NCBI GenBank assembly: GCA_018466975.1
Contig: CM031560.1
Location: 992,001-1,056,000, forward strand
Length of the DNA: 64,000 bases
Direction of reading: 5' to 3'
Origin: Sparassis latifolia
Taxonomy: Eukaryota; Basidiomycota; Agaricomycetes; Polyporales; Sparassidaceae
Part shown: piece after piece, positions 6,836-35,753 of the stretch
Position numbering within the stretch: position 1 is the stretch's first letter
Layout of the letters: each line of letters opens with the position of its first letter
The notes under the pieces: generated by a model
Seen by the model: the letters and a program-made list of their open reading frames with translations, nothing else
Told to the model about the DNA's origin: nothing
The model's database searches: none
Program-made: the position numbers and the translations under genes

Positions 6836-7314
6836 TATGGCGTTGTTGCCTTGTAAGGCACGCGCGGCGGGATGAACTCACCCCAAGTTGTTCTCTCTGA
6901 CCCTGTTTGTCCCTCGTCCCACTCACCTCCCCTTCCCTTCTCACTCATGTTGTGTCTCTGCATATCTTAAGGTCTGCTGAAGACCTGTTTGCATGTATGC
7001 CCATCTGTCGGGCTTTCAACCGTGTTTTTTCTTTTCTCCGGTTCTTTTCCTGTGATGCTTGCATTGCCTGGTGTTCTGTACCAGTACCTCGATTTTATGC
7101 CATCGAGAGCCTGTGACCTCATGTTAATGAAGGAAGCACTATGTTGATTTACTGACCATGTCTGACCTTCAAGTAGATCGGAACTAGCCGCCATGGCTCC
7201 AAACATGTGCAGCGGCATCAACACCGTGACTCAACAACTCTCAGAGTGTGTATGTTTGGCGAGTGTGTTACAAGAGTCCTTTTCACCGGAGACGGGGACT
7301 AATATCTAAGTTCC

Positions 7315-7632
7315 TTACATTGTGGGAACATCCGGCCTAACATTGTACATGTATGACGGCCCGTATGTAGCTCCGACGGTCGAAAATATGATTACAATGT
7401 AAGGCCTGATGTCTGGGCATGCGATACCCAAATCACACATTGATAATGTGTGATATTGCGACATATACAATGTTCGCAAATGGCTATGTTACCATATAAC
7501 ATTCGTCCGAAAATTTTAGGTCTCGCTCGCATGTCCGCGGGAAGAAATTCTGATCGACATTATGCCTTTCAGGGCAGACAACAGATTAAATATCGAACTA
7601 GTATAAGGGCGACACAAAGTTACAATGTATGA
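7315..7632. repeat. Subterminal ACATTGT-type repeats (left end)
   Basis: Related motifs occur at 7315 (TTACATTGT), 7339 (AACATTGTAC), 7392 (TTACAATGTAA), about 7436 (CACATTGATAATGTGTG, itself palindromic), about 7467 (TACAATGTT) and about 7620 (TTACAATGTAT). The same set is present near the right end (about 35400-35720). CACTA transposases bind short subterminal repeats of this kind; that these are the sites is inferred. Confidence 0.55.
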
Positions 7633-7732
7633 TCATTTGACATTTGACATTAGAGTCTATATATGAGGTGAGATGTCAGGGCCTCACACCCTCGACCTAA
7701 TATTCAAACTGTAAGGAGGTCGGACACCCATA

Positions 7733-7815
7733 GCGCCGCTAAGCGGCTTGACGAGTGGCACACTCGATGGCCGCTTAGTGGTCATTGGATCGCCAAGTGT
7801 ACCGCTCAGCGGCTT
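7733..7815. repeat. GCCGCT/AGCGGC hairpin array in TIR
   Basis: Repeated GCCGCTAAGCGGC, ATGGCCGCTTAG and CCGCTCAGCGGC units form several small palindromes. They lie 3' of the Spt5-like gene and have a counterpart in the right arm at about 35218-35300. They may be a transcription-end or transposase-binding structure. Confidence 0.4.
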
Positions 7816-7986
7816 TTCAACTGGTCGTGGGAGATCGCACAAGCACAAGCACAAGTTCAATCAAAGGAAGTACATTAACTGTATATAATGAGAAAGCGGC
7901 AAACGACAGGACATCGACAAACAGCGCAGGATGCAACGACGAGGGGCAAGGGACAGGAACAGCACGTAAAATTATGAGGAAACCAC

Positions 7987-10340
7987 TTATTTGCACACAA
8001 GCTGGGCCAAGTCATCCCTATCCACCCTAAGCGTCCTGCCGCCTTCTTCCAGTACTAGAACAAGCGGGTCTGCCACGCCCCGCATCGTTTTGCCGTACGC
8101 TCCGAAGTTGGGGCCACGCTTACACACGATCGCATAATCGCCAGGGCCTGGTCGCAATATGGCGAGGTCTTGGAGAGAGACATCGGCATATTCCAGCTTT
8201 CGCGTCCGGTATTCGCATCACACCTTGCTGTCCACTGGGGAGGCTCCCTTCACCGTGGTCATCAGCTTGTCTCGGAGTTGACCGGCTGTGCACATGAACT
8301 TGAAGCGATAAGTATGGAACGCAGGTGCCACAGCCGCATCCAGCATCCATCCATTGGGTCCTGATGTGAATTCAGCGGACATTTTGTGTTGATGATGAGG
8401 CTACGCACCATTAGGTTCGACTGAAGACATCGATCCATCGGGTCCTAATGTGGATTCAGCGGACGCTCGGTAGTGGCGGCGCGGTTACGCACCATCAAGT
8501 TCCACCGAATACGCCCACGCCGAATCTGTGTCGTGTGACGCGGGTTCTAATTCGTGGCCCAATGGGGTCCGAGGCCGCTCAGGGAGCGGACCACGCTCCG
8601 CCGTGTCGATGTTGCCCCTGCAATGAGGCAGTTAGATATGACCAGAACTACAAGTAATGAATCTTACCTTTCTTCTGACCGGAATGCAATCTCGGGCTTT
8701 CGGAACAAGAGGACGCCCCTCGAGGTTAAAAGCTTGGCTTCAAGCTCAACCTCGTAATCGCCGTGGTACGTGACGTTTCGCAATGTGCCCACAAATCCCT
8801 TCAAAGGGCCTTTGATGACACGCACCGCTCGCCCGATGTCGGGATTCCGTCGGTCAGGATGCTTGAGGGCAAGCTCCATCTCCACCTCTTCCTCCGTTTG
8901 CGTCTCAGAGCGTGAGGGGCGCTGCTCTCCCGGCCTTGATACTGTCACCGACGGCTGTATCGAGGTCCATTCCGCCTCGGACTCTGTGAGTAAGAGATCC
9001 CAGGGTAACACATGATGCTATATCGAGTTTTGAGCATCGATAACGTCACAGGTGGTGGGACATACCTCAGAGGTTTCCAACACAGAAGAAGTATGAAAGA
9101 CTCCCGTTATTGGGTTTCTAGTTCGCTGAGAAAAGTTCAGTACTTGGAAGCATCGTCGTACGTAGAACATACATGCTGAGGAAAGTTCCGCTATTAAGGA
9201 TTGCAATTGCATGAGAAGTGCACAACGTACCTCGACTTTGTTCGCGTGAACAATCGTGACATCGAAATCATCCACAGCAATCACTTGCCCTTCCAAGCCC
9301 GCATGGAGGCCCGTCTTAACTTTGACCGCATCGCCAACTGCCCAAAGGGGGTGTAACTGAGTTACAGGTAGCACGAGAGACGAAAGTTCGTCATCCAACT
9401 TCTCGTGGTAGAGATTGGTTAGCGTAGCCTGTCCATTAATGACTGAATGCACAACACCGATGAGGCCGCATTGCTCGCCCTGTATAACGATCACACGCGT
9501 GCCTGCAGCCAGTTCGAAGTCAACACAGAATAGAATGAGCTTCGCTATCGCTGTCTTTGGCACGAATTTCGCGCATTAAAGACGAATACGCTGTTTCGAG
9601 TCGCGTGGACGTCGAAAGTCACCCGGTCCAAAGTGAGTTCGAGCTGCAGGAGGCCGCCTTTGAACTTCTTGCCCTTGAGAATATGTATCAGCCGATCACC
9701 TTCGCTTTCTGTCACAGCCTCTCCGAACAACTCCTTCAGTAATGCTGGCGGCATCGGTTGCTGAGAAGTTCTTCTGTGCTGCCGCTTTTTTGTAGTAGGC
9801 AAGCGCGGAACCACCCAGACGCGGAGGAGAGAGTCCTCTCACGACTCCACGAAGGCCACATCGTGCTTATATGTACCACGCGAGATGCACACCCAAGGAG
9901 AGAGGAAACCATTTTCCGTGGCTTGAAGGTGGATTCCATCGGGGGCAAGAGAGACGACTGCGCCACCCAACTGCGAGGCCCGCTGTGCACGTCTAGCCGC
10001 CATGTCTCTCTCCGTAATAGACTGGGCCATGGCTTCTGCATCAGCAGCATCGTCGCCGACACATGCATTATCAAGATGCGCCCGAGCTTGTTGAGTGCGT
10101 TGGACGTCGGTGAGCAACTCGGCTGGAAACAAGCTGTAAGATATATCCAATAACGCAGCTGAGACACTTACCCAGTTCCTCCTCCTCTTCTTCTTCTTCC
10201 TCCTCCTCCTCCTCCTCCTCATCGTTGTCGACGATAGCCTCGATATCCAAGTATGGGTTCTTGGCATTCCATGCATGAGGATTGAAAATGTAAGAACCGA
10301 CTGCAGTACTTACCGCTTTCCGCGCACGCTTTGAAGACAT
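7987..10340 (-). pseudogene. Spt5-like KOW-domain gene, left TIR copy (frameshifted)
   Basis: Left-arm copy of the gene at 32696-35047 with the same exon plan: MSSKRARKA, intron, NPYLDIEAIVDN plus a long glutamate run, then the KOW repeats. Near 9571-9574 it lacks one base present in the right copy (CGCGC against CGCCGC in plus-strand sense). This breaks the frame after VFVFNA and before FVPKTAIAKL. Downstream segments, including VGDAVKVKTGLHAGLEGQV and the C-terminus ending LVCK, are otherwise nearly identical to the right copy. It is therefore probably inactive unless the base is a sequencing error; the right copy may be the functional one. Confidence 0.75.
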
Positions 10341-11146
10341 GGCAGCGTCAGTGGTATCGAGAGGTCAGGATAGTGTCCGTTAGATTTGAGCAATCGTATC
10401 TTATGAGACATCGCTTGGAGTACATGAGGCTTCGACCACGAGGCGTTCATCACCAATCAGCCCACATGTACAATTACTTCCGAGTAACACGCGCAATGTC
10501 CTTCAATGTCGCACTGCTGGTGATGAGGTGTCACCGAGAAGATTTCCGACGTAGCGGCTGCTCCTGCAGTTGTGCGTGAGCATGCACAAGTGCCGCATTC
10601 TCCTATATATTGAGAAACATATCAGTATAGCTACACCGCCCTTCGTCCATATCGTGCACATACATTATTGTCAGCCTGTCAGCCTATCAACCTCAGCGTG
10701 TACAATCGACCTGGTGCGATCTGGCTGTAACCACACGGGTGCGTTAATGTCAAGGGTCTTCAGAAATTTTTACGCGTAAGGTAATCAATAACCAAATCGG
10801 CTGCAATTCGATTGTATCCCACTCTGGTATGCAACCGGCGCAAAAGGGCGATGAAACAAACCGTCCGGCAGCTTGGCTACCTATACTATAGCTAAAGATA
10901 ACGAGGACCCCACAAGAATAAATAACAATGAAACTACAAAAGAGAGCGAACTACACTACAACGTTACTAAAGGCTCCAGGCCACATAGCGAATGACAAGC
11001 GCTACGGCCGAGAGATGGTGGTGGAACGAGAACAAGAGGAAAGAAACGCCCATTCCACCTCCAGCGGAGTTTTGACGCATCCCGTCGCTTTGTCCCGCGC
11101 AAATAAGGCAGCCACACATCACGGGCCACTTGTCACGAGCCGCTTG
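10341..11146. other. TIR spacer upstream of the Spt5-like gene
   Basis: Promoter-side spacer of the Spt5-like gene, conserved in the right arm (31892-32695) and partly in the internal copy. It has only short frames with no recognisable domain. A 14-base unit with core TTGTCACGAGCCGC is tandemly repeated near 11131-11165. Confidence 0.4.
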
Positions 11147-11596
11147 TCACGAGCCGCTTCTCAGCCTCTGTTTGTCTCGCACAAATAGACCGCGTGCGCC
11201 ATCTGGCCGCTGTCCAGAATTTGGGCACCTTCTTCCTTGCCTTCGAATTTCCATCATCCCTGCGATATCGGCCAGTTCTTCCGTCGCCGTGTCTGCCTCC
11301 TCCTCCTCGCCCATGCCCTCCTTGCCATTGTCGTTGTCGACGCCATCGCCCTCTTCCGCTCCAGTGCCGTCGTCACCGCCCTTTTCCTCGCCCACTTCGA
11401 TGCCCTGAGGGCTTCCTCGTAACGCCCTCTTCTGCGCAGGTGCCCTCTTCCTCGCTGAGCCGTTCTCGTGCGCGCTGCCGCGCCTGTTTGAATTAGGGGC
11501 CGATAGTATACATTGTATTAGAACCTGTATCATAGCCATCCGAGCCACATCTCTGATGATTGAGCGCCATATCGGGTTTGTACCAAACATAAACAT
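11147..11596 (-). CDS. Glu-rich hypothetical ORF, left copy
   Basis: A 149-residue frame with a basic stretch (ARKRAPAQKRALRG) followed by an acidic tract (GMGEEEEADTATEELA). It is kept open in all three copies in this window (also 16468-16917 and 31445-31891), including across an in-frame 3-base indel. It could be a small nuclear-type protein or an exon, but both strands are open here and no domain is recognised. Confidence 0.35.
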   Translation of the reverse strand: MFMFGTNPIWRSIIRDVARMAMIQVLIQCILSAPNSNRRGSAHENGSARKRAPAQKRALRGSPQGIEVGEEKGGDDGTGAEEGDGVDNDNGKEGMGEEEEADTATEELADIAGMMEIRRQGRRCPNSGQRPDGARGLFVRDKQRLRSGS

Positions 11597-11748
11597 AAGA
11601 ACCGCGAAAATGCACCATTAATTGGCGCCTGAGCCGCTAGAACAACCCACAGGCCAATATTGGCTCTGCTTGAAAGCCCGGAACCGTACGTTGTTGCCCA
11701 TGGACGCATCGTCCACGGCTCACTCTGGCTATACAGATATTACAGATG

Positions 11749-12860
11749 CTACATAACGATCACTCGCAAATACCGGTCCTTCGTCAAGGTCTCGATGTCT
11801 CCGCTTTCTACAATACCTGGCGCGTATTCATGGAATGGTCGGAAATTACGAGGATCGACCACCTGAGCGTACCATGTGAGTGCTCTAGTCCCACCGCGAT
11901 GCACCCCACTTACACGACATTTGCCATGTACACCGAGCTGTGCTGCGACCTGAAGAAGATTCAGGCTTCCGTCTTGGGAGCAGTGGCATTCAATTTCCCG
12001 TATAGCTTTCCAGTCTTTAGCTTTCGCAAAGAGCTTGATATGAACGACTTTGGCCTGCTCATCGTTCAGCTTCCGTGCTGGGATCTTGATGCGCAGGACT
12101 ACGTTGGGCTTCTCCGCGATAGGTGAGTCAGTACGTTTTCTCGTCTCACCGCAATTCAAGAGGTCATACCTGATCTTCACAAGCCTTCTTGTTAGTTCTC
12201 GCATCTTTTTCCGTAAACTCTGCGGGAGCCAATCGTTTACTGATCGTGGAATAAATACACGAAGCGTCTCGGTCGCGAAGGCCTGAAGGGGCTGGAGGAG
12301 GCATGCCAGAGGGTTGCAGGTGAGCTCGTTTAGGGCTTTGCGATCACTCCCGATCTCCCGAGAGAGCACGTTTGCTGGCTGGCCGTGCCACCGTCCCACC
12401 GTCTGCGGGTGCATTTGACTATAACATTGGTCACCACATGGTTGAACGTTGCAATCATAGGCTTACATGCTTGTATGTCAGATGCACTCGTTTTGCTCGT
12501 CGCTCTGCGTTGCGCTCTTCGGGCGATTTACGCTTGCGTGCGATCTCCGACGTCGACTTCTCAAGAGGTGCTGAGGCCGCGGTATCCTCGTGTGCGTAAG
12601 GACCGAGCGTTGGAGCTGCAGGGGCATGTCGCTGACTACTGTAAGTGCCTTCTGCTATGTTCGCTGTGAGATTTACTCACATATTTCCAGAGTGCATCGA
12701 TGTAGTCCTGCTTTACTGCGTTTGACCGGCCAGTTGGTGTGACCGTTAAATTGTGCTTATTGCAGAGTTTCGTAAGTATGTCCACCGTGTACCTGCTGAA
12801 AGTTGATTTACTGTACTTTTTCTGTAGCAGTGTCTGTTCGGCTCGTTCGAGGTCGAACAT
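11749..12860 (-). CDS. SAP-like domain protein of the giant element
   Basis: Starts MFDLERAEQTLLQKKYSKS at 12860. The first exon holds a SAP-like helix pair (YTVDILTKLCNKHNLTVTP followed by KQDYIDALWKY), a fold often used for DNA binding. Further exons joined in frame give a basic region (ARKRKSPEERNAERRAKRV), then KPNVVLRIKIPARKLNDEQ and LLQVAAQLGVHGKCR. The last exon, VVDPRNFRPFHEYAPGIVES, ends at 11749 inside the left TIR. The intron before it contains the TIR boundary. It is divergent from the gene at 13025 with 164 bases between start codons. Splice sites were placed by eye; the role in transposition is unknown. Confidence 0.6.
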
Positions 12861-13024
12861 GGTCAGCGGTCTACGGTTGCCTGATTCTTTTGGATATGTC
12901 AGTCGCCTGCAATCCTTATGGAGTGTGCGACTTGAATTGGTAAGACTATTGTTCTATTGTCCACCGCGACTTAGCGCGAAGGCGCGACCTCTCCCGGCTT
13001 TGAGCTTCCCCATCCACGACCAGC
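12861..13024. promoter_or_regulatory. Shared divergent promoter region
   Basis: The 164 bases separate the start codons of the SAP-like gene (minus) and the RPGRGGY gene (plus), so both promoters must be here or overlap the genes. Confidence 0.4.
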
Positions 13025-13760
13025 ATGCCCCAACTGCCGATAAAGAAACATCGCATCCAGCGCCAGTACCAACCCTCATCGGGACGCGTGCGTTTCGATG
13101 CTGAATGCCTTCTCACTCCTCCTCCCTCATCGGCAAGGTCGAAATTCCACCTTATCAAGCCTCAATCAGATGTTCAGGCTGGCACACGCCAAAGCATTGC
13201 TAGCGACGCGCATTCCCCAGGAGCTGATGCAGCAGCATCAGAACCCGTCATCCCTAAGCCTGATGGCCAAGTAGGTCGCCCAGGCCGAGGAGGTTACACG
13301 CTTAGCGATGAGTTAGGGAGACACGGGTGGGATACCGCGAAGTATGACAAGTTTCTGGTATGAAGCATATCTTGCAATGTTTTCAAAGACTGTAGCTGAC
13401 TAGCAAGTACAGAAGGACATCGGTGACTTGGCAGTCAGGTATTTGGAATTGGACAAGACAATCTCGAAACAGAATCAGACGATGTTGGACGCAGTGTATG
13501 CCCAGGTACGTCGGGTAGTTGCATACGCGATCGGCACTGGCGGTTACAGAACTTCATCAGGCTACGAGCTCTATCCAGCTCGCGCACTACGAGAAGAGTT
13601 GGCCGGTCAGAGACGCTCTGAAGACCAAGTTAGGAAACACGACCTACATGACCAAGAAGGATAGGGGGAAGGAGCAGGAGGCTCGCGCATCTGTAAGTAT
13701 AGTTTGAACCTCAAATGACCGATGCTTATTTGTCTGCAGGTTGCACCGGCCGTGTTGTAA
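13025..13760 (+). CDS. Hypothetical 'RPGRGGY' family protein
   Basis: Exons 13025-13357, 13413-13505, 13561-13692 and 13740-13760 code about 192 residues in constant phase. The N-terminal 80 residues are low complexity, then comes VGRPGRGGYTLSDELG and a helical region with DIGDLAVRYLELDKTISKQNQ, followed by YEKSWPVRDALKTKL and a basic end. I recognise this as a recurrent uncharacterised family of mushroom genomes with the pattern RPGRGGY...W(D)...FPVRDALK; no function is known to me. It lies head-to-head with the SAP-like gene, which suggests co-expression. Confidence 0.65.
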
Positions 13761-14589
13761 AATATCCTGCATTGTTGTACTGCTCTCGATTTTAGTCATG
13801 AATGTAGACTCGATTGTTTGGATTCGAGCGGCGCCCTACATGCGCTCATGTAGCGTTATCCCATGTTGTTTCCAGATCTGCGCTGTACGAGTCGACCCCA
13901 TTTGCACCAATGGTCAGTAAAGTTATAAGTCGGCTGTCCCGGGCTGCTGCCTGAACGGGGGATACTAAGGCTCACAAGATCGTCAGCATGCCCAGTCGGC
14001 AGTAACGCAAAAGTAACGCATATGTCACAGACAGTAACGCGTGCCGTTTTGTTACTCCGCTCGGCAGCCTAATGCGCGAAGGTCGTGACCGTGTCGTTGT
14101 GAACGCCACCACTTGAAACCCCGCTGCCGACGCTCGCGGCAGACTTCGGCCAGTGACTAGCCAGCGTGAGTCTGCGTTACATTGGAGGTCAAGAAGGGAC
14201 TCCTCCAATACCGATCCGTTTGAGCTCGTTCAACCTCAAGAATGTTGTAGTACTATAAAATCATACATATAAGAGATAACTAAGTGGTAGAGGCAGGGGA
14301 AAGGGCTAATTGAGTGAGGTGCCGACTTGGGGGGCATGCCGACGATCTTGTGAGCCATAGTATTGATTGCAGCACACATTCACCTCCACCTTCACCGAGC
14401 TTCAGTCTTTCCACGACGGGAGCAGACGATACATTGAATTTATAAGTAGACAACAAACGCGACTGACAAGCTCCATACGGTCCCTCAGCAAAACGCCCCA
14501 CGCACAGCCGACTGCCTCCCAACAGCCTTATGGCACCTACATGCACATCTGATCAGTCAAGTAATGTACCGACTCGTCAAAGACTTATG
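13761..14589. other. Spacer in the element interior
   Basis: No gene I can support. AGTAACGC occurs three times at about 13997-14045. The segment from about 14400 onward resembles 29400-29530. Confidence 0.3.
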
Positions 14590-14863
14590 TTAGATGCCAG
14601 TAACATTGCAGGAGCGCGGCGCGGAGGAGAGCGATGTACCTTCCTTGCCGCTGACAGGGAAGACCTCGCGAACGAGCATCATGGACCGGTCTACATCCTC
14701 GACGAGCTGCTTGGTCCGATATACGCTGGCCCTAAGGGTCCGAACCTCCTCCTGTAAGTCACTAATGGAGGACACCGAGGCCATGTAAGTGCTCTCTGTA
14801 AACAATGTTAATATCGATTCAAGTCAAAATGTATAATCATCACTTACGACCACGACTAGCCAT
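14590..14863 (-). CDS. Small coiled-coil protein 1, internal copy
   Basis: Two exons: MASRG at 14863 joined across a GT...AG intron to STYMASVSSISDLQEEVRTL. The remainder is a predicted coiled coil ending in a Ser-rich tail (about 77 residues). The exon 1/intron sequence is nearly identical to the paralogue at 29845, while the coding part has diverged. No enzyme motif; it may be an oligomerisation or accessory protein. Confidence 0.5.
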
Positions 14864-15572
14864 GAGGATCAGTTTGGACAGCAGTGGGGGAATGGTGGTG
14901 GTGGTGGTGGTATGCTCCGAACGTGAGATGGGGAAAGACTCGGAGACACCGCAATATATATAGGCATAGTCATGAGACCCTATTATATAATTATAGGTGG
15001 AATACTATTAGTGACTGACATGCCCCAGAAGGGTGATACTTCGTTCTATGCAGTTTGAGCATTCCATATGCTACAGAAAAAATATCTGAAGCCGAAGACA
15101 GTCAGGCAACATGGCACAATATATTTCCTCCGATCATCGGCATGTCGCGACACTTTTAATACAAAATTTTATACAAAATCCCACTATCCCGATTCCTACT
15201 TAGCTGTGAAGCTTTGAAGGGTTCTAGCGATGACAGAAGCAGTGTGAAAATCTAACCCTTTTTTTCAATGGCCGGGAAAGAACTTGTTTTATAAATCTTT
15301 ACCTTAAATTCACAATGAATTGTGTGCTGGGTATGGGATAGTGGAAGAGGGTCCATATGCTTTCGAGTCTCACGCGCGAGCTTCGCAGGCTTCACCGGCG
15401 CCCACATGATGAAAGAACTTGATAACGAATACATACATTCTCCGATGACAATGCAGCGCAAGATAACAATGAATACATTCTCGGATGACAAACTATACAT
15501 GACCCAACACACGAACAGCTAACCCCTAAAGGTTGCTCAGCGAACTAGTGGAGGAAGTGAATAAAGACTACA

Positions 15573-15954
15573 TCAGTACAAGGTTGAACGCGTGTACGCA
15601 CTGTCGGCAATGACCTCTGCACAGAGAGAGTCCACGGCATCGGCTGTGGCATCTACTATTTGGCTGAGCTCCTCCGTGTCTTGTTCTGACTCGTCTAAAC
15701 ATTTCCGCATCGCACGAATATCTGCAACTAACTGCATTGCATTCGCTTGCGTACGCGCGTGCTCACGCTTCAGGTCCTCGATCTCCTTCAGTAAGGACGT
15801 GCGGGTGTCCGACGAAGGCGGATGGGATGTGCTCGCCACGTCCGTCTCGGTACTAGATTTTGGACATTGGACCGGGGACACGGAGACCTGTAGGCGAGTA
15901 ACGTCAGCAACTGAAATGTGGACAGCGAACTTCCGCATCCACCTTGTCTGACAT
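15573..15954 (-). CDS. Small coiled-coil protein 2, internal copy
   Basis: MSDKVDAE (15954) is joined across a 46-base intron to VSVSPVQCPKSSTETDVAS, then SLLKEIEDLKREHARTQAN and a long coiled coil ending at 15573, about 120 residues in all. The first 50 residues match the paralogue at 30931 almost exactly, but the coiled-coil part is completely different, so exon or segment exchange has occurred. Function unknown. Confidence 0.5.
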
Positions 15955-16093
15955 ATTTGCGGCCGACTTTTCGAAATTCTGAGGGAGTAGCGTGGACAGC
16001 GAAATCCGGGACGGATGGTGATGGGTTCGCATTATCAGCCTGGCAGCAGCAGGCAGGATATATAAAGGCAACATACCTGGGATTAGAAGCGTC

Positions 16094-16315
16094 GTGCCGG
16101 ATGGTTCCACGAATACCTGTCGCGGAAGTCAACGAGAAGCACGGCGTCAGCACGGAATTCATGTAAGCGATGTGCATAAAGCACTCACATGGTACGCTCA
16201 GGTGGTCGATCCTCGTAATTTCCGACCATTCCATGAATACGCGCCAGGTATTGTAGAAAGCGGAGACATCGAGACCTTGACGAAGGACCGGTATTTGCGA
16301 GTGATCGTTATGTAG
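16094..16315 (+). pseudogene. VVDPRNF last-exon fragment, internal copy
   Basis: Copy of the last exon of the SAP-like gene (VVDPRNFRPFHEYAPGIVES...RYLRVIVM) without the SAP-like upstream exons. A GT donor just after GIH at about 16163 could join a different, unrecognised upstream exon in phase. More likely a duplicated 3' fragment, but a chimeric gene cannot be excluded. Confidence 0.4.
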
Positions 16316-16467
16316 CATCTGTAATATCTGTATAGCCAGAGTGAGCCGTGGACGATGTGTCCATGGGCAACAACGTACGGTTCCGGGCTTTCAAGCAGAG
16401 CCAATATTGGCCTGTGGGTTGTTCTAGCGGCTCAGGCGCCAATTAATGGTGCATTTTCGCGGTTCTT

Positions 16468-16917
16468 ATGTTTATGTTTGGTACAAACCCGATATGGCGC
16501 TCAATCATCAGAGATGTGGCTCGGATGGCTATGATACAGGTTCTAATACAATGTATACTATCGGCCCCTAATTCAAACAGGCGCGGCAGCGCGCACGAGA
16601 ACGGCTCAGCGAGGAAGAGGGCACCTGTGCAGAAGAGGGCGTTACGAGGAAGCCCTCAGGGCATCGAAGTGGGCGAGGAAAAGGGCGGCGACGACGGCAC
16701 TGGAGCGGAAGAGGGCGATGGCGTCGACAACGACAATGGCAAGGAGGGCATGGGCGAGGAGGAGGAGGCAGACACGGCGACGGAAGAACTGGCCGATATC
16801 GCAAGGATGATGGAAATTCGAAGGCAAGGAAGAAGGCGCCCAAATTCTGGACAGCGGCCAGATGGCGCACGCGGTCTATTTGTGCGAGACAAACAGAGGC
16901 TGAGAAGCGGCTCGTGA
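16468..16917 (+). CDS. Glu-rich hypothetical ORF, internal copy
   Basis: A 149-residue frame nearly identical to that at 11147-11596, differing by a few replacements (APVQ for APAQ; ARMM for AGMM). No domain recognised; it may be non-coding repeat sequence that happens to stay open. Confidence 0.3.
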   Translation: MFMFGTNPIWRSIIRDVARMAMIQVLIQCILSAPNSNRRGSAHENGSARKRAPVQKRALRGSPQGIEVGEEKGGDDGTGAEEGDGVDNDNGKEGMGEEEEADTATEELADIARMMEIRRQGRRRPNSGQRPDGARGLFVRDKQRLRSGS

Positions 16918-17771
16918 CAAGCGGCTCGTGACAAGTGGCCCGTGATGTGTGGCTGCCTTATTTGCGTGGGACAAAGCGACGGGATGCGTCAAAACTCCGC
17001 TGGAGGTGGAATGGGCGTTTCTTTCCTCTTGTTCTCGTTCCACCACCATCTCTCGGCCGTAGCGCTTGTCATTCGCTATGTGGCCTGGAGCCTTTAGTAA
17101 CGTTGTAGTGTAGTTCGCTCTCTTTTGTAGTTTCGTTGTTATTTATTCTTGTGGGGTCCTCGTTATCTTTAGCTATAGTATAGGTAGCCAAGCTGCCGGA
17201 TGGTTTGTTTCATCGCCCTTTTGCGCCGGTTGCATACCAGAGTGGGATACAATCGAATTGCAGCCGATTTGGTTATTGATTACCTTACGCGTAAAAATTT
17301 CTGAAGACCCTTGACATTAACGCACCCGTGCGGTTACAGCCAGATCGCACCAGGTCGATTGTACACGCTGAGGTTGATAGGCTGACAGGCTGACAATAAT
17401 GTATGTGCACGATATGGACGAAGGGCGGTGTAGCTATACTGATATGTTTCTCAATGTATAGGAGAATGCGGCACTTGTGCATGCTCACGCACAACTGCAG
17501 GAGCAGCCGCTACGTCGGAAATCTTTGCGGATTTGATCATGAAGCAATTGAAAAAACTGCAACGCGGCCGCCATTTGTCTGAAATTGGTATAGACGTGTT
17601 CAGGTGATGTGATGCCTGTGCCTATTCATTCCAACGGCTTATTGTCTGAGTCGGTTTTATATCTAGGATGACGTGGAGTGCTTGCTGGTAACTATGCCGA
17701 TCTGGAGCGTGCTCTCCTCCAGTCGATCAGTGGTGTATATGGAGCAACTATCGCAGACCCGAGGAGGAGAG

Positions 17772-25034: not shown

Positions 25035-26753
25035 ATGGCTCTGCGGAATGACTTGGCAGAGGAATTCACCGTAGGTAAGAATATTTTTCTTCTACGACCT
25101 TGTCGAACTTAACGCTGTTCGCCCCTGGTGTAGAGAGAATGCTCTGTCCCCACCCTACAATTCCCGGGTCGTTCATAGATTCTCGCGAGGGACTCGCCAC
25201 CAGCACTCATATGGACGAAGTGCAGCCTGCTCCCCTTCAGGTGGACAAGGCACAAGGCGCTCCTCCTGGCTTGGATGGTTCAGTCCCTCAGCTAGGGTCT
25301 GTCGGTCCTAAATCCCTGCCTTTGCTTGCCCCTACGCATCACATTGAGCCGCGGCAACCTACTCCGCCCCCTGCGAACATTGGAGGAATGGCAAAGGAAT
25401 CCCTGGCACCTGCGCCGACAGTTGAGGTCACAGCCATGCAACAGCTGGTCGAATTTATCGGCCTCGCTGTCGATCAATCGGTGCAGAAGGCACTTTCCAA
25501 CTTCACTCCGGTACTCGAACGCCAGAACGAGATCATTAGGCAGTTGGCCCCTCTGGCTACGCTTTTACCGTCGGCGCGGGCATCGACATCTGCCAAGAAC
25601 GAAGGGCGGTCCACTGTCTCCCACTCCATGCCGAATGGTGAATATGATGGCGGAGAGGAGGATAACGACGATTGCGATGATGCGCCGATCTCGCGTGTCA
25701 AGCGCTCCAGAGGAGAACGTGATAACGTCTTTCATGTGAGTAGCACGCTTATAGCTTATTCTCATTCTGAATTAACCTACAGGATCGCTTTCGAGAATAC
25801 CTGAAGGTGAAAGGTCTTCTACCGAAGGCTCGAGACAGCCCCCTCTCTCCGGTCCCGAAGCCGGAAATCATGCAAGCATGGCACGATGGCGAGGGGGATG
25901 GTCCCGATGTCGCTGCTCCCCTGATCGAGTGGTCGTTGCCGCTGAGTTCTGCGTGGAACAAGGAGGTGATCCACATCGTCACTGAGGAGTTTCTCAAGCA
26001 GGTAGCAGGAGGCGAGCACCCACCGCTTGTGTCCGATCCAGCGTGGACAATCACGACGGCATCACAGTGTTGCCTGCGCAAGCTGCAGAATGGGCCTCAC
26101 AAGCGATTCACAGAAGTGGAATTAATGGAGGACGAAGAAGTGGAGTCAGCGAGGAACACTGCGAAGAAGCAACGTAGGAAGAACAGTCGCAGGGAGACGG
26201 TACGTCATCTCAGTCTTTGATTTCGATTTGACTTATATATATTTGAAGGTGTATAAACGGCGCGGTGACATCATCGAGGTCAACCTTCAAGACAATCCGG
26301 CAATCTGGGGAAAAGTCAAGATTATCCACATGGCCTTAGGTCAAGGAGGCATGAGTTCGGATGAGACCGATGGCGAGTATACTCGTCGCAACGACAAGAA
26401 AGTTCGACGTGTTTGCTTGCCATGGCGCCATCCCTCTCTTGCTGCATTTTACAGGAACGTCGATTCTTATGAGGATGTGCACCCACTTCATCTCACGGAA
26501 CAAGGCAATTACTCGCTGTCTCGCATCTTTGAAGCAAATGCGTCGTCATCGTCCAAGAGAAAGCCGATCACGCAGTTGCCGAAGAACTTCTACAACCCCG
26601 ACTGGATGAAGACTATCACTCGTGCTCAGCGCAGTACCCTACGGTTCAAACTGGCATTCGAAATACCTGACCTCGTAAGAAGCGTCTTTGTGTGTCGTCG
26701 TTTGCTGGCTCACGTGTGAACCATAGCCAGAATTCGCGGCGAGGAGAAACTAA
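25035..26753 (+). CDS. Hypothetical 'MSSDETDGE' family protein of the element
   Basis: MALRNDLAEEFTV is joined in phase across an intron to ERMLCPHPTIPGSF. A Pro-rich region, a helical region (LVEFIGLAVDQSVQKALSNF) and an acidic-basic patch (EEDNDDCDD...VKRSRGERD) follow. After two introns come VYKRRGDIIEVNL and GMSSDETDGEYTRR, then VRRVCLPWRHPSLAAFYRNVDSY and LPKNFYNPDW, ending PEFAARRN at 26753. The 'GMSSDE' block with a basic flank and an aromatic C-terminal motif recurs in uncharacterised mushroom proteins associated with repeats. It is divergent from the transposase, so it may be the element's second transposition protein, comparable in position to plant CACTA TnpA; that is inference. 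Confidence 0.65.
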
Positions 26754-27680: not shown

Positions 27681-27735
27681 TGCACTTTCTCAGACACATC
27701 GTCCAGTCAATTCAAAGCACGTATTTCCCTTTTTG

Positions 27736-29162
27736 ATGCTCCCGGTCGAGCTAGGCAATATCATTCTCCATATTTTGGCGAACGATCGTGACACGTTATA
27801 CACACTTTCACTTGTGTCTGGGCTTCTCCGAGTCTACGTACTGCCGCTCTATCTAAAGGCCGCAGGCTTCATTGATTCCTCGAACAATGTCAGTCCAGTC
27901 ATAACTTATGAGCACACACGGCCCATCATCGTGTGGCGCGGCATGCAAGGCCTTCCTACTCCCCCATCTATGTGGATCCGTATCATCGCGAATGCAGCAA
28001 TGGCCAAACGCCAGCTTTACGGGTTGGTGGGATTCTTCATCTCGAGTCGTACCCAGCTCGCTATATCCAACATTGTCATCGAGCTCCACAACGCGCGGCT
28101 CGCTCTAGCCACATGCAAGTTCCTACAGACCGTGGCCTCGTCAGGGGTGTCGCACCTATGTCTGAAGTCGCGCTTGTCTAGCGATCTTCGAGCTATCGAG
28201 TCTCCTGAAGACATCCCTGTCGTCAACTCCGGTCTATTTTATCCTCGTCTGCAGAAGATGCAGGTCAAATCTGCCGTATTCTTCTCCGCGGAGTACATTA
28301 GTTGGACGGTTCACACCCTCAACAGCGCAGCGCTCACTGCGCTCGATCTCCAGCTCGACAACAGAGGTTCACCATCGTGGCGTCTTATTTTACCTCACCT
28401 CCACATGGAGCATCTGGAAACCCTCTACATCGATGGTGCGCTACCCATCAACACAATTTTCCGTTTCCTCCTTCATCATCCCAGCATACGTGAGCTCCGG
28501 ATTGGTCGCTTTACTCGCCCTGGTTTCCTCCCCTACGCCGCCCGTCCACCTAATATGGACCACCTCGAAGTCCTCGCGGGTTCTCACGACTACATAATCC
28601 CCTTACTTGCGCGGGGTCTTCCTGCACTGCAGCGTCTTGCGGTCATACCGGATCATCCTTCCGCGATTGGCCTATTTCTCGATTCCGAGCTCCGAGGGGT
28701 GATAAACAGTGCTCGACGCTGTACGCGTCTCCAAGAGCTCGACATCGCCCTTCCCTGTGGTTACATCGCACAGCCAGAATCCGACTCGTTCTTCATTGTA
28801 GACGACCCACAACACCTTCGCACGGAACGCGGTCTTTCGAACGTGCGCACGATCACCATCCGCGCTACATGGGACGCAGACGAATTTACCTTATCTTCAA
28901 CTCATCTGAGTGTTCTTGTAAGTTGCCCATTTCATTCGTTGCTTCGCCGCCATTCACATCAGCACAGAACAGCTTACCGGGGTGGCTAGATCTCTTTCCT
29001 TCGGTACGACACTTGCGTATAGTCGAGGGGCGCAGCGTCAAGTTAGACGCCAATCGACGTGCACAAGTCACTCAATTGTATCGTGCTTGTCCTTACCTAG
29101 AAGATATATCGATGTATGCGGGGGATAGGCACCTGGCGGAGTGTTGGAAGCGCGAGATCTGA
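27736..29162 (+). CDS. F-box/LRR-like protein carried in the element
   Basis: Exons 27736-28917 and 28968-29162 code about 458 residues. The start MLPVELGNIILHILANDRDTL resembles a divergent F-box (LPxEL..IL). After it come leucine-rich segments such as LTALDLQLDN, HLETLYIDGALP, SIRELRIGRFTRP, MDHLEVLAGSHD and TRLQELDIALPCG, typical of mushroom F-box/LRR proteins. It may be a ubiquitin ligase adaptor. The 50-base intron has GT...AG ends. It lies between the transposition genes and the right arm, so it is either captured host DNA or true cargo. Confidence 0.75.
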
Positions 29163-29210
29163 TGTATTTCCATGTCATGTATGTGTAAAGAAGTCAATGC
29201 CATTGAGCTT

Positions 29211-29424
29211 GCCGACGATTGTCTTGCGAGATCAGCCTCCAACCTGAAGACTTTCCACGACTTCCGAAGGTCATTTCAGGCACAGTAAATAAAAGTACAA
29301 CAAATGCGGCCGACAATCACGACGATTGTCTTGCGAGATCAGCCTCCAACCTTAAGACTTTCCACAACTTCCGAAGGTCATTTCAGGCACAGTAAACAAA
29401 AGTACAACAAACGCGGCCGACAAT
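29211..29424. repeat. 107-bp tandem duplication
   Basis: Two consecutive units, 107 bases apart, both starting GACGATTGTCTTGCGAG and ending AACGCGGCCGACAATCA or a close variant, with only a few differences. They lie just 3' of the F-box/LRR gene and are non-coding. Confidence 0.75.
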
Positions 29425-29536
29425 CATACAGAACCCCCGCGGAATGCCCCACACCCGACTGCCTCCCAGTAACCTTGTGCACATCTGATCAGTCAGGTTA
29501 TCTACCGATATAAATCACTCATCTTAAGGACTTACG

Positions 29537-29845
29537 TTAGACCGCCTCAGTAACATTGGAGAAGGGCAGCGCAGAGGAGGGCGGCGCGGCGGAGGGCGGC
29601 ACGGTGGAGGGCGGCGCGGAGGGCGATGCCCCTCCGGTGTTGATACCAAGGGCCGCACGAATGATCTCCACGGCCCGCTGCACCTTCAGCGCGATAGCCT
29701 CAGTCTGACTTACGTCGGCGCTAAGGGCCCGAATCTGGTTCTGTAAGTCACTGATGGAGGGTGCTGAGGCCACAGCAGTGCAAACAATGTTAATATCGAT
29801 TCACGTCAAAATGTATAATCATCACTTACGACCACGATTAGCCAT
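29537..29845 (-). CDS. Small coiled-coil protein 1, right module copy
   Basis: MANRG at 29845 is joined across an intron to PPSISDLQNQIRALSADVS, then LKVQRAVEIIRAALGINTG and an Ala/Pro/Ser-rich tail built of repeated PPS units, ending at 29537. It is a paralogue of the gene at 14863 with shared exon 1 and intron, but a different tail. Length about 80 residues. Confidence 0.5.
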
Positions 29846-30435
29846 GAGGATCAGTTTGGACAGTAGTGGGGGGATGGTGGTGGTGGTGGTGGTGGTATGC
29901 TCCGAACGTGAGATGGGGAAAGACTCGGAGACACCGCAATATATATAGGCATACCCCTCATGGGTCCCACGTGCCACGAAATTTATAATCTGACAGATCC
30001 AAAACAATAGACGCATTTCCACGAATTTCGCATCACGTACTCTGGGGTAAGAGAGGGTTCCCCATAGTACGCCGAAATTCGTGGAAATGCTTATGTTTCC
30101 TCGAAAGGTAGCTCCAGACTTATGGCTTCAGACTTATGGTATAGTTATGTCCACTTCAAACGAATTTATTTTCAGCAAGGATTATAGAAAACTTATTTAA
30201 TCTATCTTTAAATGTCCACATCGCCGAGCGGCACTTTGCGCACGCATGTACCTCGCCTCGCCCGTCTTCTCGTCGCGAGTCACGCAGATGGCCTGGCAGA
30301 ATGAATCGACGAGGTCCTTCGTGGTCTATACTTATCCTGTCGAGTCTCACACGCGACCTTCGCAGCCTTCGCGGGTGCCCGCCTAACGGAAGGACTAGAG
30401 ATAATTCTCCGTCCGCAAACGGAGCGCAAGATACA

Positions 30436-30931
30436 TTAATATTGAGCGAGGTACACGACACGAACAGCGAAACCAACGCCCCCCGCAAGCAGCTCAGGCA
30501 CCTGGGAATAGTGAATACAGGTGTCATCAATAGGATTTTGATCCACGTACGCACCGTAAGGGGGAGGGGGAGGGGTGCTCAATGATCCTCGCTCGGCGCG
30601 GACCAGCGCAGCCAGGTCGGCTGTAGCCTCTGCAAACTCTCGAACATGAACTGCACGTCGTCCCGACTGTTCGACTCGGAGCTCCATGGTCTTCACCTCC
30701 TTCTCTAAGATAAGGATCAGCTGCATTAATTTTTGTTGTTCACGCTTCAGGTCCTCGATCTCCTCCAGTAAGGACGTGCGCGTGTCCGACGAAGGCGGAC
30801 GGGATGTGCTCGCCACGTCCGTCTCGGTACTAGATTTTGGACATTGGACCGGGGACACGGAGACCTGTAGGCGAGTAACGTCAGCAACTGAAATGTGGAC
30901 AGCGAACTTCCGCATCCACCTTGTCTGACAT
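30436..30931 (-). CDS. Small coiled-coil protein 2, right module copy
   Basis: MSDKVDAE at 30931 joined to VSVSPVQCPKSSTETDVAS, then LLEEIEDLKREQQKLMQLI and a different coiled coil from the internal copy, followed by a Pro-rich stretch (STPPPPPYGAYVDQ), ending at 30436 unless a late intron is present. Its N-terminal half is nearly identical to the gene at 15954. Confidence 0.5.
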
Positions 30932-31070
30932 ATTTGCGGCCGACTTTTCGAAATTCTGAGGGAGTAGCGTGGACAGCGAAATCCGGGACGGATGGTGATG
31001 GGTTCGCATTATCAGCCTGGCAGCAGCAGGCAGGATATATAAAGGCAACATACCTGGGATTAGAAGCGTC

Positions 31071-31292
31071 GTGCCGGATGGTTCCACGAATACCTGTCGC
31101 GGAAGTCAACGAGAAGCACGGCGTCAGCACGGAATTCATGTAAGCGATGTGCATAGAGCACTCACATGGTACGCTCAGGTGGTCGATCCTCGTAATTTCC
31201 GACCATTCCATGAATACGCGCCAGGTATTGTAGAAAGCGGAGACGTCGAGACCTTGACGAAGGACCGGTATTTGCGAGTGATCGTTATGTAG
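31071..31292 (+). pseudogene. VVDPRNF last-exon fragment, right arm
   Basis: Right-arm counterpart of the SAP-like gene's last exon (GIVESGDVETLTKDRYLRVIVM). Here it is preceded by the sequence found in the internal copy rather than by SAP-like exons. A donor after GIH could join an upstream exon in phase, but no complete gene is seen. Confidence 0.4.
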
Positions 31293-31444
31293 CATCTGTA
31301 ATATCTGTATAGCCAGAGTGAGCCGTGGACGATGCGTCCATGGGCAACAACGTACGGTTCCGGGCTTTCAAGCAGAGCCAATATTGGCCTGTGGGTTGTT
31401 CTAGCGGCTCAGGCGCCAATTAATGGTGCGTTTTCGCGGTTCTT

Positions 31445-31891
31445 ATGTTTATGTTTGGTACAAACCCGATATGGCGCTCAATCATCAGAGATGTGGCTCG
31501 GATGGCTATGATACAGGTTCTAATACAATGTATACTATCGGCCCCTAATTCAAACAGGCGCGGCGCGCACGAGAACGGCTCAGCGAGGAAGAGGGCACCT
31601 GCGCAGAAGAGGGCGTTACGAGGAAGCCCTCAGGGCATCGAAGTGGGCGAGGAAAAGGGCGGCGATGACGGCACTGGAGCAGAAGAGGGCGATGGCATCG
31701 ACAACGACAACGGCGAGGAGGGCATGGGCGAGGAGGAGGAGGCAGACACGGCGACGGAAGAACTGGCCGATATCGCAGGGATGATGGAAATTCGAAGGCA
31801 AGGAAGAAGGCGCCCAAATTCTGGACAGCGGCCAGATGGCGCACGCGGTCTATTTGTGCGAGACAAACAGAGGCTGAGAAGCGGCTCGTGA
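31445..31891 (+). CDS. Glu-rich hypothetical ORF, right copy
   Basis: A 148-residue frame, one residue shorter than the two other copies through a 3-base deletion (NRRGAHENG for NRRGSAHENG). The frame is preserved, which hints at coding, but the evidence is thin. Confidence 0.35.
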   Translation: MFMFGTNPIWRSIIRDVARMAMIQVLIQCILSAPNSNRRGAHENGSARKRAPAQKRALRGSPQGIEVGEEKGGDDGTGAEEGDGIDNDNGEEGMGEEEEADTATEELADIAGMMEIRRQGRRRPNSGQRPDGARGLFVRDKQRLRSGS

Positions 31892-32695
31892 CAAGCGGCT
31901 CGTGACAAGTGGCCCGTGATGTGTGGCTGCCTTATTTGCGCGGGACAAAGCGACGGGATGCGTCAAAACTCCGCTGGAGGTGGAATGGGCGTTTCTTTCC
32001 TCTTGTTCTCGTTCCACCACCATCTCTCGGCCGTAGCGCTTGTCATTCGCTATGTGGCCTGGAGCCTTTAGTAACGTTGTAGTGTAGTTCGCTCTCTTTT
32101 GTAGTTTCATTGTTATTTATTCTTGTGGGGTCCTCGTTATCTTTAGCTATAGTATAGGTAGCCAAGCTGCCGGACGGTTTGTTTCATCGCCCTTTGCGCG
32201 GTTGCATACCAGAGTGGGATACAATCGAATTGCAGCCGATTTGGTTATTGATTACCTTACGCGTAAAAATTTCTGAAGACCCTTGACATTAACGCACCCG
32301 TGCGGTTACAGCCAGATTGCACCAGGTCGATTGTACACGCTGAGGTTGATAGGCTGACAGGCTGACAATAATGTATGTGCACGATATGGACGAAGGGCGG
32401 TGTAGCTATACTGACATGTTTCTCAATGTATAGGAGAATGCGGCGCTTGTGCATGCTCACGCACAACTGCAGGAGCAGCCGCTACATCGGAAATCTTCTC
32501 GGTGACACCTCATCACCAGCAGTGTGACGTTGAAGGACATTGCACGTGTTACTCGGAAGTAATTGTACATGTGGGCTGATTGGTGATGAACGCCTCGTGG
32601 TCGAAGCCTCGTGTACTCCAAGCGACGTCTCATAAGATACGATTGCTCAAATCTAACGGACACTATCCTGACCTCTCGGTACCACTGACGCTGCC

Positions 32696-35047
32696 ATGTC
32701 TTCAAAGCGTGCGCGGAAAGCGGTAAGTACTGCAGTCGGTTCTTACGTTTTCAATCCTCATGCATGGAATGCCAAGAACCCATACTTGGATATCGAGGCT
32801 ATCGTCGACAACGAGGAGGAGGAGGAGGAGGAGGAAGAAGAAGAAGAGGAGGAGGAACTGGGTAAGTGTCTCAGCTGCGTTATTGGATATATCTTACAGC
32901 TTGTTTCCAGCCGAGTTGCTCGCCGACGTCCAACGCACTCAACAAGCTCGGGCGCATCTTGATAATGCATGTGTCGGCGACGATGCTGCTGATGCAGAAG
33001 CCATGGCCCGGTCTATTACGGAGAGAGACATGGCGGCTAGACGTGCACAGCGGGCCTCGCAGTCGGGTGGTGCAGTCGTCTCTCTTGCCCCCGATGGAAT
33101 CCACCTTCAAGCCACGGAAAATGGTTTCCTCTCTCCTTGGGTGTGCATCTCGCGTGGTACATATAAGCACGATGTGGCCTTCGTGGAGTCGCGAGAGGAC
33201 TCTCTCCTCCGCGTCTGGGTGGTTCCGCGCTTGCCTACTACAAAAAAGCGGCAGCACGGAAGAACTTCTCAGCAACCGATGCCGCCAGCATTACTGAAGG
33301 AGTTGTTCAGAGAGGCTGTGACAGAAAGCGAAGGTGATCGGCTGATACATATTCTCAAGGGCAAGAAGTTCAAAGGCGGCCTCCTGCAGCTCGAACTCAC
33401 TTTGGACCGGGTGACTTTCGACGTCCACGCGACTCGAAACGACGTATTCGTCTTTAATGCGGCGAAATTCGTGCCAAAGACAGCGATAGCGAAGCTCATT
33501 CTATTCTGTGTTGACTTCGAACCGGCTGCAGGCACGCGTGTGATCGTTATACAGGGCGAGCAATGCGGCCTCATCGGTGTCGTGCATTCAGTCATTAATG
33601 GACAGGCTACGCTAACCAATCTCTACCACGAGAAGTTGGATGACGAACTTTCGTCTCTCGTGCTACCTGTAACTCAGTTACACCCCCTTTGGGCAGTTGG
33701 CGATGCGGTCAAAGTTAAGACGGGCCTCCATGCGGGCTTGGAAGGGCAAGTGATTGCCGTGGATGATTTCGATGTCACGATTGTTCACGCGAACAAAGTC
33801 GAGGTACGTTGTGCACTTCTCATGCAATTGCAATCCTTAATAGCGGAACTTTCCTCAGCATGTATGTTCTACGTACGACGATGCTTCCAAGTACTGAACT
33901 TTTCTCAGCGAACTAGAAACCCAATAACGGGAGTCTTTCATACTTCTTCTGTGTTGGAAACCTCTGAGGTATGTCCCACCACCTGCGACGTTATCGATGC
34001 TCAAAACTCGATATAGCATCATGTGTTACCCTGGGATCTCTTACTCACAGAGTCCGAGGCGGAATGGACCTCGATACAGCCGTCGGTGACAGTATCAAGG
34101 CCGGGAGAGCAGCGCCCCTCACGCTCTGAGACGCAAACGGAGGAAGAGGTGGAGATGGAGCTTGCCCTCAAGCATCCTGACCGACGGAATCCCGACATCG
34201 GGCGAGCGGTGCGTGTCATCAAAGGCCCTTTGAAGGGATTTGTGGGCACATTGCGAAACGTCACGTACCACGGCGATTACGAGGTTGAGCTTGAAGCCAA
34301 GCTTTTAACCTCGAGGGGCGTCCTCTTGTTCCGAAAGCCCGAGATCGCATTCCGGTCAGAAGAAAGGTAAGATTCATTACTTGTAGTTCTGGTCATATCT
34401 AACTGCCTCATTGCAGGGGCAACATCGACACGGCGGAGCGTGGTCCGCTCCCTGAGCGGCCTCGGACCCCATTGGGCCACGAATTAGAACCCGCGTCACA
34501 CGACACAGATTCGGCGTGGGCGTATTCGGTGGAACTTGATGGTGCGTAACCGCGCCGCCACTACCGAGCGTCCGCTGAATCCACATTAGGACCCGATGGA
34601 TCGATGTCTTCAGTCGAACCTAATGGTGCGTAGCCTCATCATCAACACAAAATGTCCGCTGAATTCACATCAGGACCCAATGGATGGATGCTGGATGCGG
34701 CTGTGGCACCTGCGTTCCATACTTATCGCTTCAAGTTCATGTGCACAGCCGGTCAACTCCGAGACAAGCTGATGACCACGGTGAAGGGAGCCTCCCCAGT
34801 GGACGGCAAGGTGCGATGCGAATACCGGACGCGAAAGCTGGAATATGCCGATGTCTCTCTCCAAGACCTCGCCATATTGCGACCAGGCCCTGGCGATTAT
34901 GCGATCGTGTGTAAGCGTGGCCCCAACTTCGGAGCGTACGGCAAAACGATGCGGGGCGTGGCAGACCCGCTTGTTCTAGTACTGGAAGAAGGCGGCAGGA
35001 CGCTTAGGGTGGATAGGGATGACTTGGCCCAGCTTGTGTGCAAATAA
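32696..35047 (+). CDS. Spt5-like KOW-domain protein carried by the giant element
   Basis: Resembles transcription elongation factor Spt5 (DSIF large subunit). Exons include 32696-32722, 32777-32861, 32911-33803, a short one at 33859-33891, one from 34017, and more to 35047; the product is roughly 640 residues. An acidic run of about 15 glutamates follows DIEAIVDN, as in the Spt5 N-terminus. ISRGTYKHDVAFVESRE...LRVWVVPRLP resembles Spt5 KOW1 (GxYKGDLAxV...VPRI). Later KOW-like units are TRVIVIQGEQCGLIGVVHSV, VGDAVKVKTGLHAGLEGQVI and IGRAVRVIKGPLKGFVGTL. There is no Spt5 C-terminal repeat. The exons around 33804-34016 are uncertain. The gene sits wholly within the TIR; its left twin is frameshifted. 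Confidence 0.8.
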
Positions 35048-35753
35048 GTGGTTTCCTCGTAATTTTACGTGCTGTTCCTGTCCCTTGCCCCTCGTCGTTG
35101 CATCCTGCGCTGTTTGTCGATGTCCTGTCATTTGCCGCTTTCTCATTATATACAGTTAATGTACTTCCTTTGATTGAACTTGTGCTTGTGCTTGTGCGAT
35201 CTCCCACGACCAGTTGAAAAGCCGCTGAGCGGTACACTTGGCAATCCAATGACCACTAAGCGGCCATCGAGTGTGCCACTCGTCAAGCCGCTTAAGCGGC
35301 GCTATGGGTGTCCGACCTCCTTACAGTTTGAATATTAGGTCGAGGGTGTGAGGCCCTGACATCTCACCTCATATATAGACTCTAATGTCAAATGTCAAAT
35401 GATCATACATTGTAACTTTGTGTCGCCCTTATACTAGTTCGATATTTAATCTGTTGTCTGCCCTGAAAGGCATAATGTCGATCAGAATTTCTTCCCGCCG
35501 GACATGCCGAACGAGACCTAAAATTTTCGGACGAATGTTATATGGTAACATAGCCATTTGCGAACATTGTATATGTCGCAATATCACACATTATCAATGT
35601 GTGATTTGGGTATCGCATGCCCAGACATCAGGCCTTACATTGTAAACATATTTTCGACCGTCGGAGCTACATACGGGCCGTCATACATGTACAATGTTAG
35701 GCCGGATGTTCCCACAATGTAAGGAACTTAGATATTAGTCCCCGTCTCCGGTG

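Follow-up and report, generated by a model that had tools for sequence, protein, structure and literature searches.

Positions 7284-35753 of the window, the whole 64,000-nucleotide stretch of Sparassis latifolia contig CM031560.1 analyzed here (positions 992,001 to 1,056,000, or C9:992001-1056000 of a searched genome of 41.4 Mb in 22 contigs), are one mobile unit of 28,470 bp. This unit, termed W, is best explained as one copy of a giant CACTA/EnSpm transposon, and we place the probability of that explanation in full, including the mechanism steps given below, at roughly 93%. The left end of W reads CACCGGAGACGGGG and the right end is its complement. Complementary termini, TTT borders and near-identical 4.6-kb inverted arms are all present as an initial annotation of this DNA had described them, with the arms 98.8% identical. 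The features that delimit the unit are as follows.

7281-7283, no strand: left target site duplication (TSD) TTT, read directly; a 3-bp TSD also borders the four other complete copies
35754-35756, no strand: right TSD TTT, read directly
7284-7740, plus strand: terminal region with the CACCGGAGACGGGG end and five ACATTGT subterminal repeats
7284-11887, plus strand: left long inverted arm, 98.8% identical to the reverse complement of 31154-35753
31154-35753, minus strand: right long inverted arm; homology extends to ~30737 in loop-inverted copies

A family of precisely bordered copies

A search for further copies with the same ends, which the initial annotation had suggested, returned 15 genome matches to the 23-base end at two or fewer mismatches, versus none for a reversed control pattern. 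Five copies are complete, namely W (28,470 bp), C3 (27,166 bp), C4 (27,136 bp), C4b (27,167 bp) and C12 (14,534 bp), and full-size family members span 27.1-28.5 kb. All five are bordered by exact 3-bp TSDs that are distinct from one another (TTT, AGT, TGA, TTA and CCA, respectively). Partial copies lie on contigs C5, C7 and C19, where the C5 copy is ~0.5 kb short at its left end and otherwise full, and more diverged remnants are present on C11, C12 and C3.

Empty sites were sought with the joined flanks of the five large copies and of four miniature inverted-repeat transposable elements (MITEs, see below), and the best 40 of 60 candidates were scored. Places spanning the junction number two for C3 and at least 20 for C4b. 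A single TSD is present in all six of the empty paralogous sites that were read (two for C3, four for C4b); site L050 was read by eye. Such single-TSD sites indicate movement of the whole unit, at least for C3 and C4b. Weighing against this reading, no empty site was found in the searched genome for W, C4 or C12, whose joined flanks matched only their own places among the best 40 of 60 candidates, save for a short partial match ~0.35 kb from W. The empty-site comparison proposed in the initial annotation thus succeeded for these two copies and not for W itself, while its borders at 7284 and 35753, and the idea of a single unit between them, are upheld by the five complete copies, their different TSDs and the empty sites for two of them.

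The family of copies, the TSDs and the empty sites together exclude a chance origin. A local pile-up, in which the interval arose from a series of independent insertions or by inverted duplication and is not a mobile unit, would find some favor in the nested insertion and the internal third arm copy that W contains. The same architecture nevertheless recurs elsewhere between other TSDs, and two copies have clean empty sites, so that a local composite or inverted duplication was rejected and is in our judgment extremely improbable.

Two further observations concern the copies and their surroundings. About 50 bases at the start of the right flank (35754-35803) recur ~0.35 kb downstream at 36110-36165, as seen by eye and as a short partial match in the joined-flank search. 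A further copy of ~37.6 kb, delimited from end, Tnp2, MID and KOW matches, lies at C7:1735253-1772840, of which the right part was read.

Assignment to CACTA/EnSpm

Inspection of W reveals every defining CACTA/EnSpm feature that was examined: a Transposase_21 domain, the C(2)C and H(3-4)H motifs as defined in PMC12730594, CAC..GTG termini, a 3-bp TSD and subterminal repeats. Plant CACTA elements likewise combine terminal inverted repeats (TIRs) with subterminal repeats (PMC8978399), and the same Transposase_21 domain underlies a survey of CACTA relatives in animals and fungi (PMC1636069). Short TIRs of tens of bp and a content of one or two genes, typical of CACTA and non-defining, are absent here. 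Because all defining features examined are present, W is a variant of this type. The initial annotation was therefore correct in calling it CACTA, on the strength of Tnp2, termini, TSD and subterminal repeats that all fit, and too strong in suggesting a new class. Its remark that size and arms exceed the usual form also holds, at 27.1-28.5 kb with arms of 4.6-5.0 kb. Novelty relative to known CACTA elements lies in the size, the arms, the loop and the Spt5-like gene; a literature survey covering titles and abstract openings, and incomplete in that respect, returned no CACTA element with kilobase gene-bearing arms.

Other large or related element types were considered. No Starship tyrosine recombinase captain was seen in the proteins scanned, which do not represent every frame, and a DDE transposase is present. 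Plavaka was rejected since PF18759, the model of the Plavaka transposase, is unmatched in the W transposase; PF18759 accompanies PF02992 in 4 of 110 transposase relatives. Plavaka termini (TGT..ACA or CATCA..TGATG; PMC12730594) also differ from those of W, although its 2-3 bp TSD would fit the 3 bp seen here. KDZ was rejected because no KDZ model matched in the profile scan and the TSD is 3 bp, where KDZ TSDs are given as 7-8 bp (PMC12730594) or 4-8 bp (PMC12810828).

Comparison with described systems places individual traits of W in several of them. Fungal EnSpm families with TET/JBP genes share 5'-CAC..GTG-3' termini, 3-bp TSDs and an extra gene (PMC12730594), but no TET/JBP domain was found in the proteins scanned here, which do not represent every frame; KOW and WD40 are absent as terms from the main text of that paper. 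CNIRT6 and CNEST of Cryptococcus neoformans are likewise basidiomycete members of the CMC supergroup whose ends start with CAC and which encode a DDE transposase, yet they measure ~7.5 and ~7.2 kb with TIRs of 24 and 33 bp, and CNEST has TA TSDs and is assigned by its authors to a distinct clade; gene-bearing arms are not mentioned for either in the parts of PMC12810828 consulted. Enlarged EnSpm elements of Chondrus crispus (cited in PMC6431247) are similarly oversized and multi-gene, but smaller than W at 16-20 kb with 4-5 open reading frames, and kilobase arms are not mentioned in the consulted parts of that source. Galileo, of the P superfamily, resembles W in its very long TIRs, structural dynamism and recombination, and departs from it in TIRs of at most ~1.26 kb, 7-bp borders and longest-TIR copies that are non-autonomous (PMC3573991). 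Teratorn has long inverted repeats and subtypes differing by an internal inversion, but joins a piggyBac-type transposase to a herpesvirus at 41-182 kb (PMC6431247). Coe1 of Beta vulgaris places a gene for a Tnp2-domain transposase between long repeats; these are described as direct, like long terminal repeats, and the element is a plant one (PMC2426827).

Termini, miniature derivatives and the transposase

The motif ACATTGT occurs five times near each end, in both orientations, and the outermost kilobase at either end of the element accounts for 10 of its 22 occurrences in the window. ACATTG is present six times in the first 456 bp, compared to a shuffle mean of 0.44, a count reached in 0 of 2000 shuffles. 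Relatives of the terminus, 41-74 bp in length, were found at 16 further places, with another of ~51 bp on C14. Six of the 16 (L040-L045) were read and are MITEs of 250 bp (one 249) with the same left terminus as the element; the right end is altered in two, and four have exact 3-bp TSDs. ACATTG occurs three times in the MITE, a count reached in 8 of 2000 shuffles. Some of this evidence cuts the other way. ACATTG was picked post hoc, with any 6-mer reaching six in 3 of 500 shuffles and reaching the MITE count of three in 267 of 500, and two of the six MITEs lack an exact TSD. Since short elements with these ends move, the long arms are probably unnecessary for recognition.

The Tnp2 transposase gene that the initial annotation had placed between the arms is present, on the minus strand.

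19606-23212, minus strand: body of the Tnp2 (Transposase_21) gene by Pfam match, with in-frame stops in W
24468-24602, minus strand: displaced N-terminal Cys/His-rich transposase exon, matching query residues 1-45
23213-24404, no strand: nested palindromic insertion of 1,192 bp with an 8-bp TSD, GCCTTCGA, splitting the transposase gene

Transposase_21 (PF02992) matches at E 8.9e-12 in W and 2e-10 in the C3 model, which begins with the Cys/His-rich stretch. The motifs SVDWFNP, ITDLPG, FCSQC, HNALH and FPFE(R/H) are conserved in those relatives that cover them (13 chosen of 110), and we take them as the D, D, C2C, H3H and E positions. In part this reading follows the family description in PMC12730594. 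The closest named relatives are proteins of Sparassis crispa, P0001, at 90% identity across 76% of the query, and P0003, at 85% across 48%.

In W the nested insertion separates the N-terminal exon and in-frame TGA stops follow, such that the predicted W transposase is broken. The palindrome is absent from C3, C4, C4b and C5 and belongs to a high-copy family, with at least 33 near-full-length matches elsewhere in the genome among the best 40 of 60 candidates. By the 8-bp length of its TSD it is perhaps hAT-like. Among the matches listed, stops interrupt one or more exon matches of every core-bearing Tnp2 copy, a point against an active family; some of these stops are intronic. No copy is therefore called intact or currently active. 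By analogy with its family, the Tnp2 DDE transposase would recognize the CACCGGAGAC termini together with the ACATTGT subterminal repeats, excise the 27-28 kb unit and insert it with a 3-bp TSD.

Inverted arms evolve in concert

The two arms of W align over 4608 columns at 98.8% identity with 12 gap columns, and arm length across the family is 4.6-5.0 kb. A third, truncated arm copy lies inside the element.

15760-17525, plus strand: third, truncated arm copy, a direct repeat of 30737-32497 at 98.5%

Within it, 16177-17525 repeats 10539-11887 in inverted orientation at 99.2%. Comparison of the ten arms of the five complete elements reveals 158 sites changed in both arms of one element only (71 in C12, 38 in C4, 27 in C4b, 20 in C3 and 2 in W), compared to 16 sites common to two arms from different elements; 124 sites are private to a single arm and 59 are changed in three or more. 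The contrast of 158 and 16 shared sites indicates concerted evolution and points to gene conversion within the element. In a tree, arms of the same element are sisters at 100/100 in C3, C4, C4b and C12, four of the five, where the bootstrap had not settled. Several counts fit this account less well: the two arms of W form no supported pair and have 2 private shared sites versus 17 private to one arm, and single-arm changes in C4b (63) exceed the shared ones (27). Within-element gene conversion is the likeliest cause by which the arms would be kept alike.

Probable recombination between arm copies

A segment bounded by two of the arm-derived repeats differs in orientation among copies.

11888-16176, no strand: invertible loop of 4.3 kb between X (10539-11887) and X' (16177-17525)

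Among the five core-bearing copies read, the loop has the same orientation in W and C3 and is inverted in C4, C4b and C5. C12, at 14.5 kb, consists of arm, loop and arm without the core, and both arms are kept. Loop inversion and the C12 structure are the products expected of recombination between arm copies, which would flip the 4.3-kb loop and could delete the core to leave arm-loop-arm elements.

C12 could instead be an older and simpler form, the giant element having arisen by ancestral fusion of an arm-loop-arm with an arm-core-arm element. This agrees with the C12 layout and with the stretch at 14450-14968, adjoining arm sequence, an old copy of 29404-29953 that has diverged from it (69-87%). 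C12 would equally result if the direct repeats 16177-17525 and 31154-32497 recombined once, which is simpler, and we regard fusion as unlikely.

Genes in the arms and interior

Each arm holds a gene for an Spt5-like protein with KOW domains.

32698-35047, plus strand: right-arm Spt5-like KOW gene, stop-free in its predicted exons, hand-cut from a longer chain
8485-10340, minus strand: left-arm Spt5-like KOW gene, interrupted by a stop and a frameshift

The initial annotation had described a complete gene in each arm. The right-arm gene is indeed open over the stretch examined and the left copy is not; a mirror of the right-arm model would extend the latter to ~7990. The right-arm protein matches the Pfam models KOW (2.1e-8), KOW5_SPT5 (9.5e-8) and KOW2_Spt5 (3.4e-7), with Spt5_N below cut-off, and its matches among solved structures are SPT5 chains (best 1.6e-6). 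Protein searches covered the best 7995-7997 candidates by shared words. A first run, probably swamped by a Glu run, gave a single weak match to a Coemansia Spt5, and a second run gave none. By these domain matches, the KOW gene extends the range of transposon-borne genes to a putative Spt5-like transcription elongation factor.

The interior contains additional predicted genes.

11752-12860, minus strand: LOOP gene of no known family, its last ~45 codons within the arm, hand-cut from a longer chain
17694-19409, plus strand: WD40-repeat protein gene (Pfam 6.9e-9)
25139-26713, plus strand: MID gene of no known family, divergent from Tnp2, with matches in other core-bearing copies, hand-cut
27707-29140, plus strand: F-box/LRR-like gene by eye, without Pfam match, hand-cut from a longer chain
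30439-31008, minus strand: coiled-coil-like open frame on visual inspection, adjoining the right arm on its inner side, without Pfam match

Among the WD40, MID, LOOP, F-box-like and coiled-coil-like frames, only WD40 has a Pfam match. Codon bias is weak, for which gene-finder scores were relaxed, and exon borders are predictions. The predicted chains merged genes (16 exons across the left arm and loop, 34 from MID into the right arm) and were cut by hand into KOW, LOOP, MID and F-box-like genes. A structure model of MID had a predicted local distance difference test (pLDDT) score of 30.8 and was not used. Five or six genes are thus modeled besides the arm genes, fewer than the roughly ten that the initial annotation counted in the interior, although ten would still be compatible with the sequence. 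A 107-bp tandem duplication at 29213-29426 lies near the right end of the core.

WD40, MID, LOOP and F-box-like sequences match copies of the family and have almost no other matches in the genome. Among the best candidates scored, there is no close host source in the genome for these four or for KOW. Because matches are nearly confined to family copies, these genes look like resident genes of the element rather than recent captures. Capture of host genes was rejected, with no close source outside the family and its remnants among those candidates and only distant matches on C11 (WD40 40%, MID 35%). The earlier description of gene cargo thus stands as to the presence of extra genes, and a capture of these from the host finds no support.

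C11:3756352-3811170 (L038, L053) contains distant relatives of Tnp2 (46%), WD40 and MID within 55 kb and is possibly a divergent relative of the element. The 8 kb read between its WD40 and MID matches contain no match to Tnp2, WD40, MID, KOW or LOOP, F-box-like not having been queried. As a point against the preferred reading of W, no long inverted repeat occurs in the 30 kb read around the related Tnp2 (46%) at C11:3756352. A candidate terminus beside this Tnp2 is partnerless and was taken as chance.

Outside W, the flanking host genes encode an M16 peptidase (3758-5233, 1.1e-52) and an electron transfer flavoprotein (36967-37635, 2.2e-28).

Probable neutral decay and the possible role of the arms

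CpG transitions constitute 66-82% of derived changes per gene in the predicted exons, while CpG accounts for ~13% of element positions. Purifying selection was sought among copies and was not found, with a CpG-corrected nonsynonymous-to-synonymous (N/S) ratio of 0.76-1.53. This analysis dropped exon matches covering <85% of the exon or with <93% identity and used the fewest-stop frame per exon; two left-arm KOW exons overlap. The observed/expected CpG ratio of W (1.03) is like that of its flanks (0.93 and 0.98), which indicates that decay is young. We infer that decay of the copies is now neutral and proceeds chiefly through CpG transitions, with cytosine methylation the presumed cause.

These results bear on what the arms do. 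They may have no role, aberrant repair having made one inverted duplication in a progenitor that was then inherited as a passenger. Gene conversion would act merely because the arms exist, and this account is compatible with the best explanation of W. MITEs that share the element's ends move despite lacking arms, no gene is constrained among copies (N/S 0.76-1.53) and one arm gene in W is broken. The retention of both arms by the core-deleted C12 speaks against a lack of role, if weakly: complete copies were identified through their termini, and selection cannot be demonstrated from five members of a single lineage. On balance, we give roleless arms slightly better than an even chance.

Alternatively, the arms could be selected, with two Spt5-like copies and a template for self-repair helping the element against silencing and mutation, by analogy to the anti-silencing role put forward for the TET/JBP genes of other fungal transposons (PMC12730594). 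The homogenized arms, the multi-KOW protein with SPT5 chains as its matches among solved structures, and the strong CpG decay, which makes silencing pressure probable, are each consistent with selection. The lack of constraint among copies is not, and limited searches found no transposon relative of the KOW gene elsewhere, leaving selected arms a tentative and rather unlikely proposal. More speculative, and less probable again, is a class of self-maintaining giant CACTA elements in which the arms would serve as mutual repair templates and supply two doses of an anti-silencing factor, and the loop would act as a recombination switch generating smaller mobile derivatives.

The preferred reading of W as one copy of a giant CACTA/EnSpm transposon carries meaning beyond this locus. 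CACTA elements can reach ~28 kb with arms of ~5 kb and still insert precisely, as the empty sites of two copies indicate. The family offers a natural system in which to test for gene conversion between the inverted repeats of a transposon. With its Spt5-like gene, the proposal that transposons encode anti-silencing factors can be tested outside TET/JBP as well.

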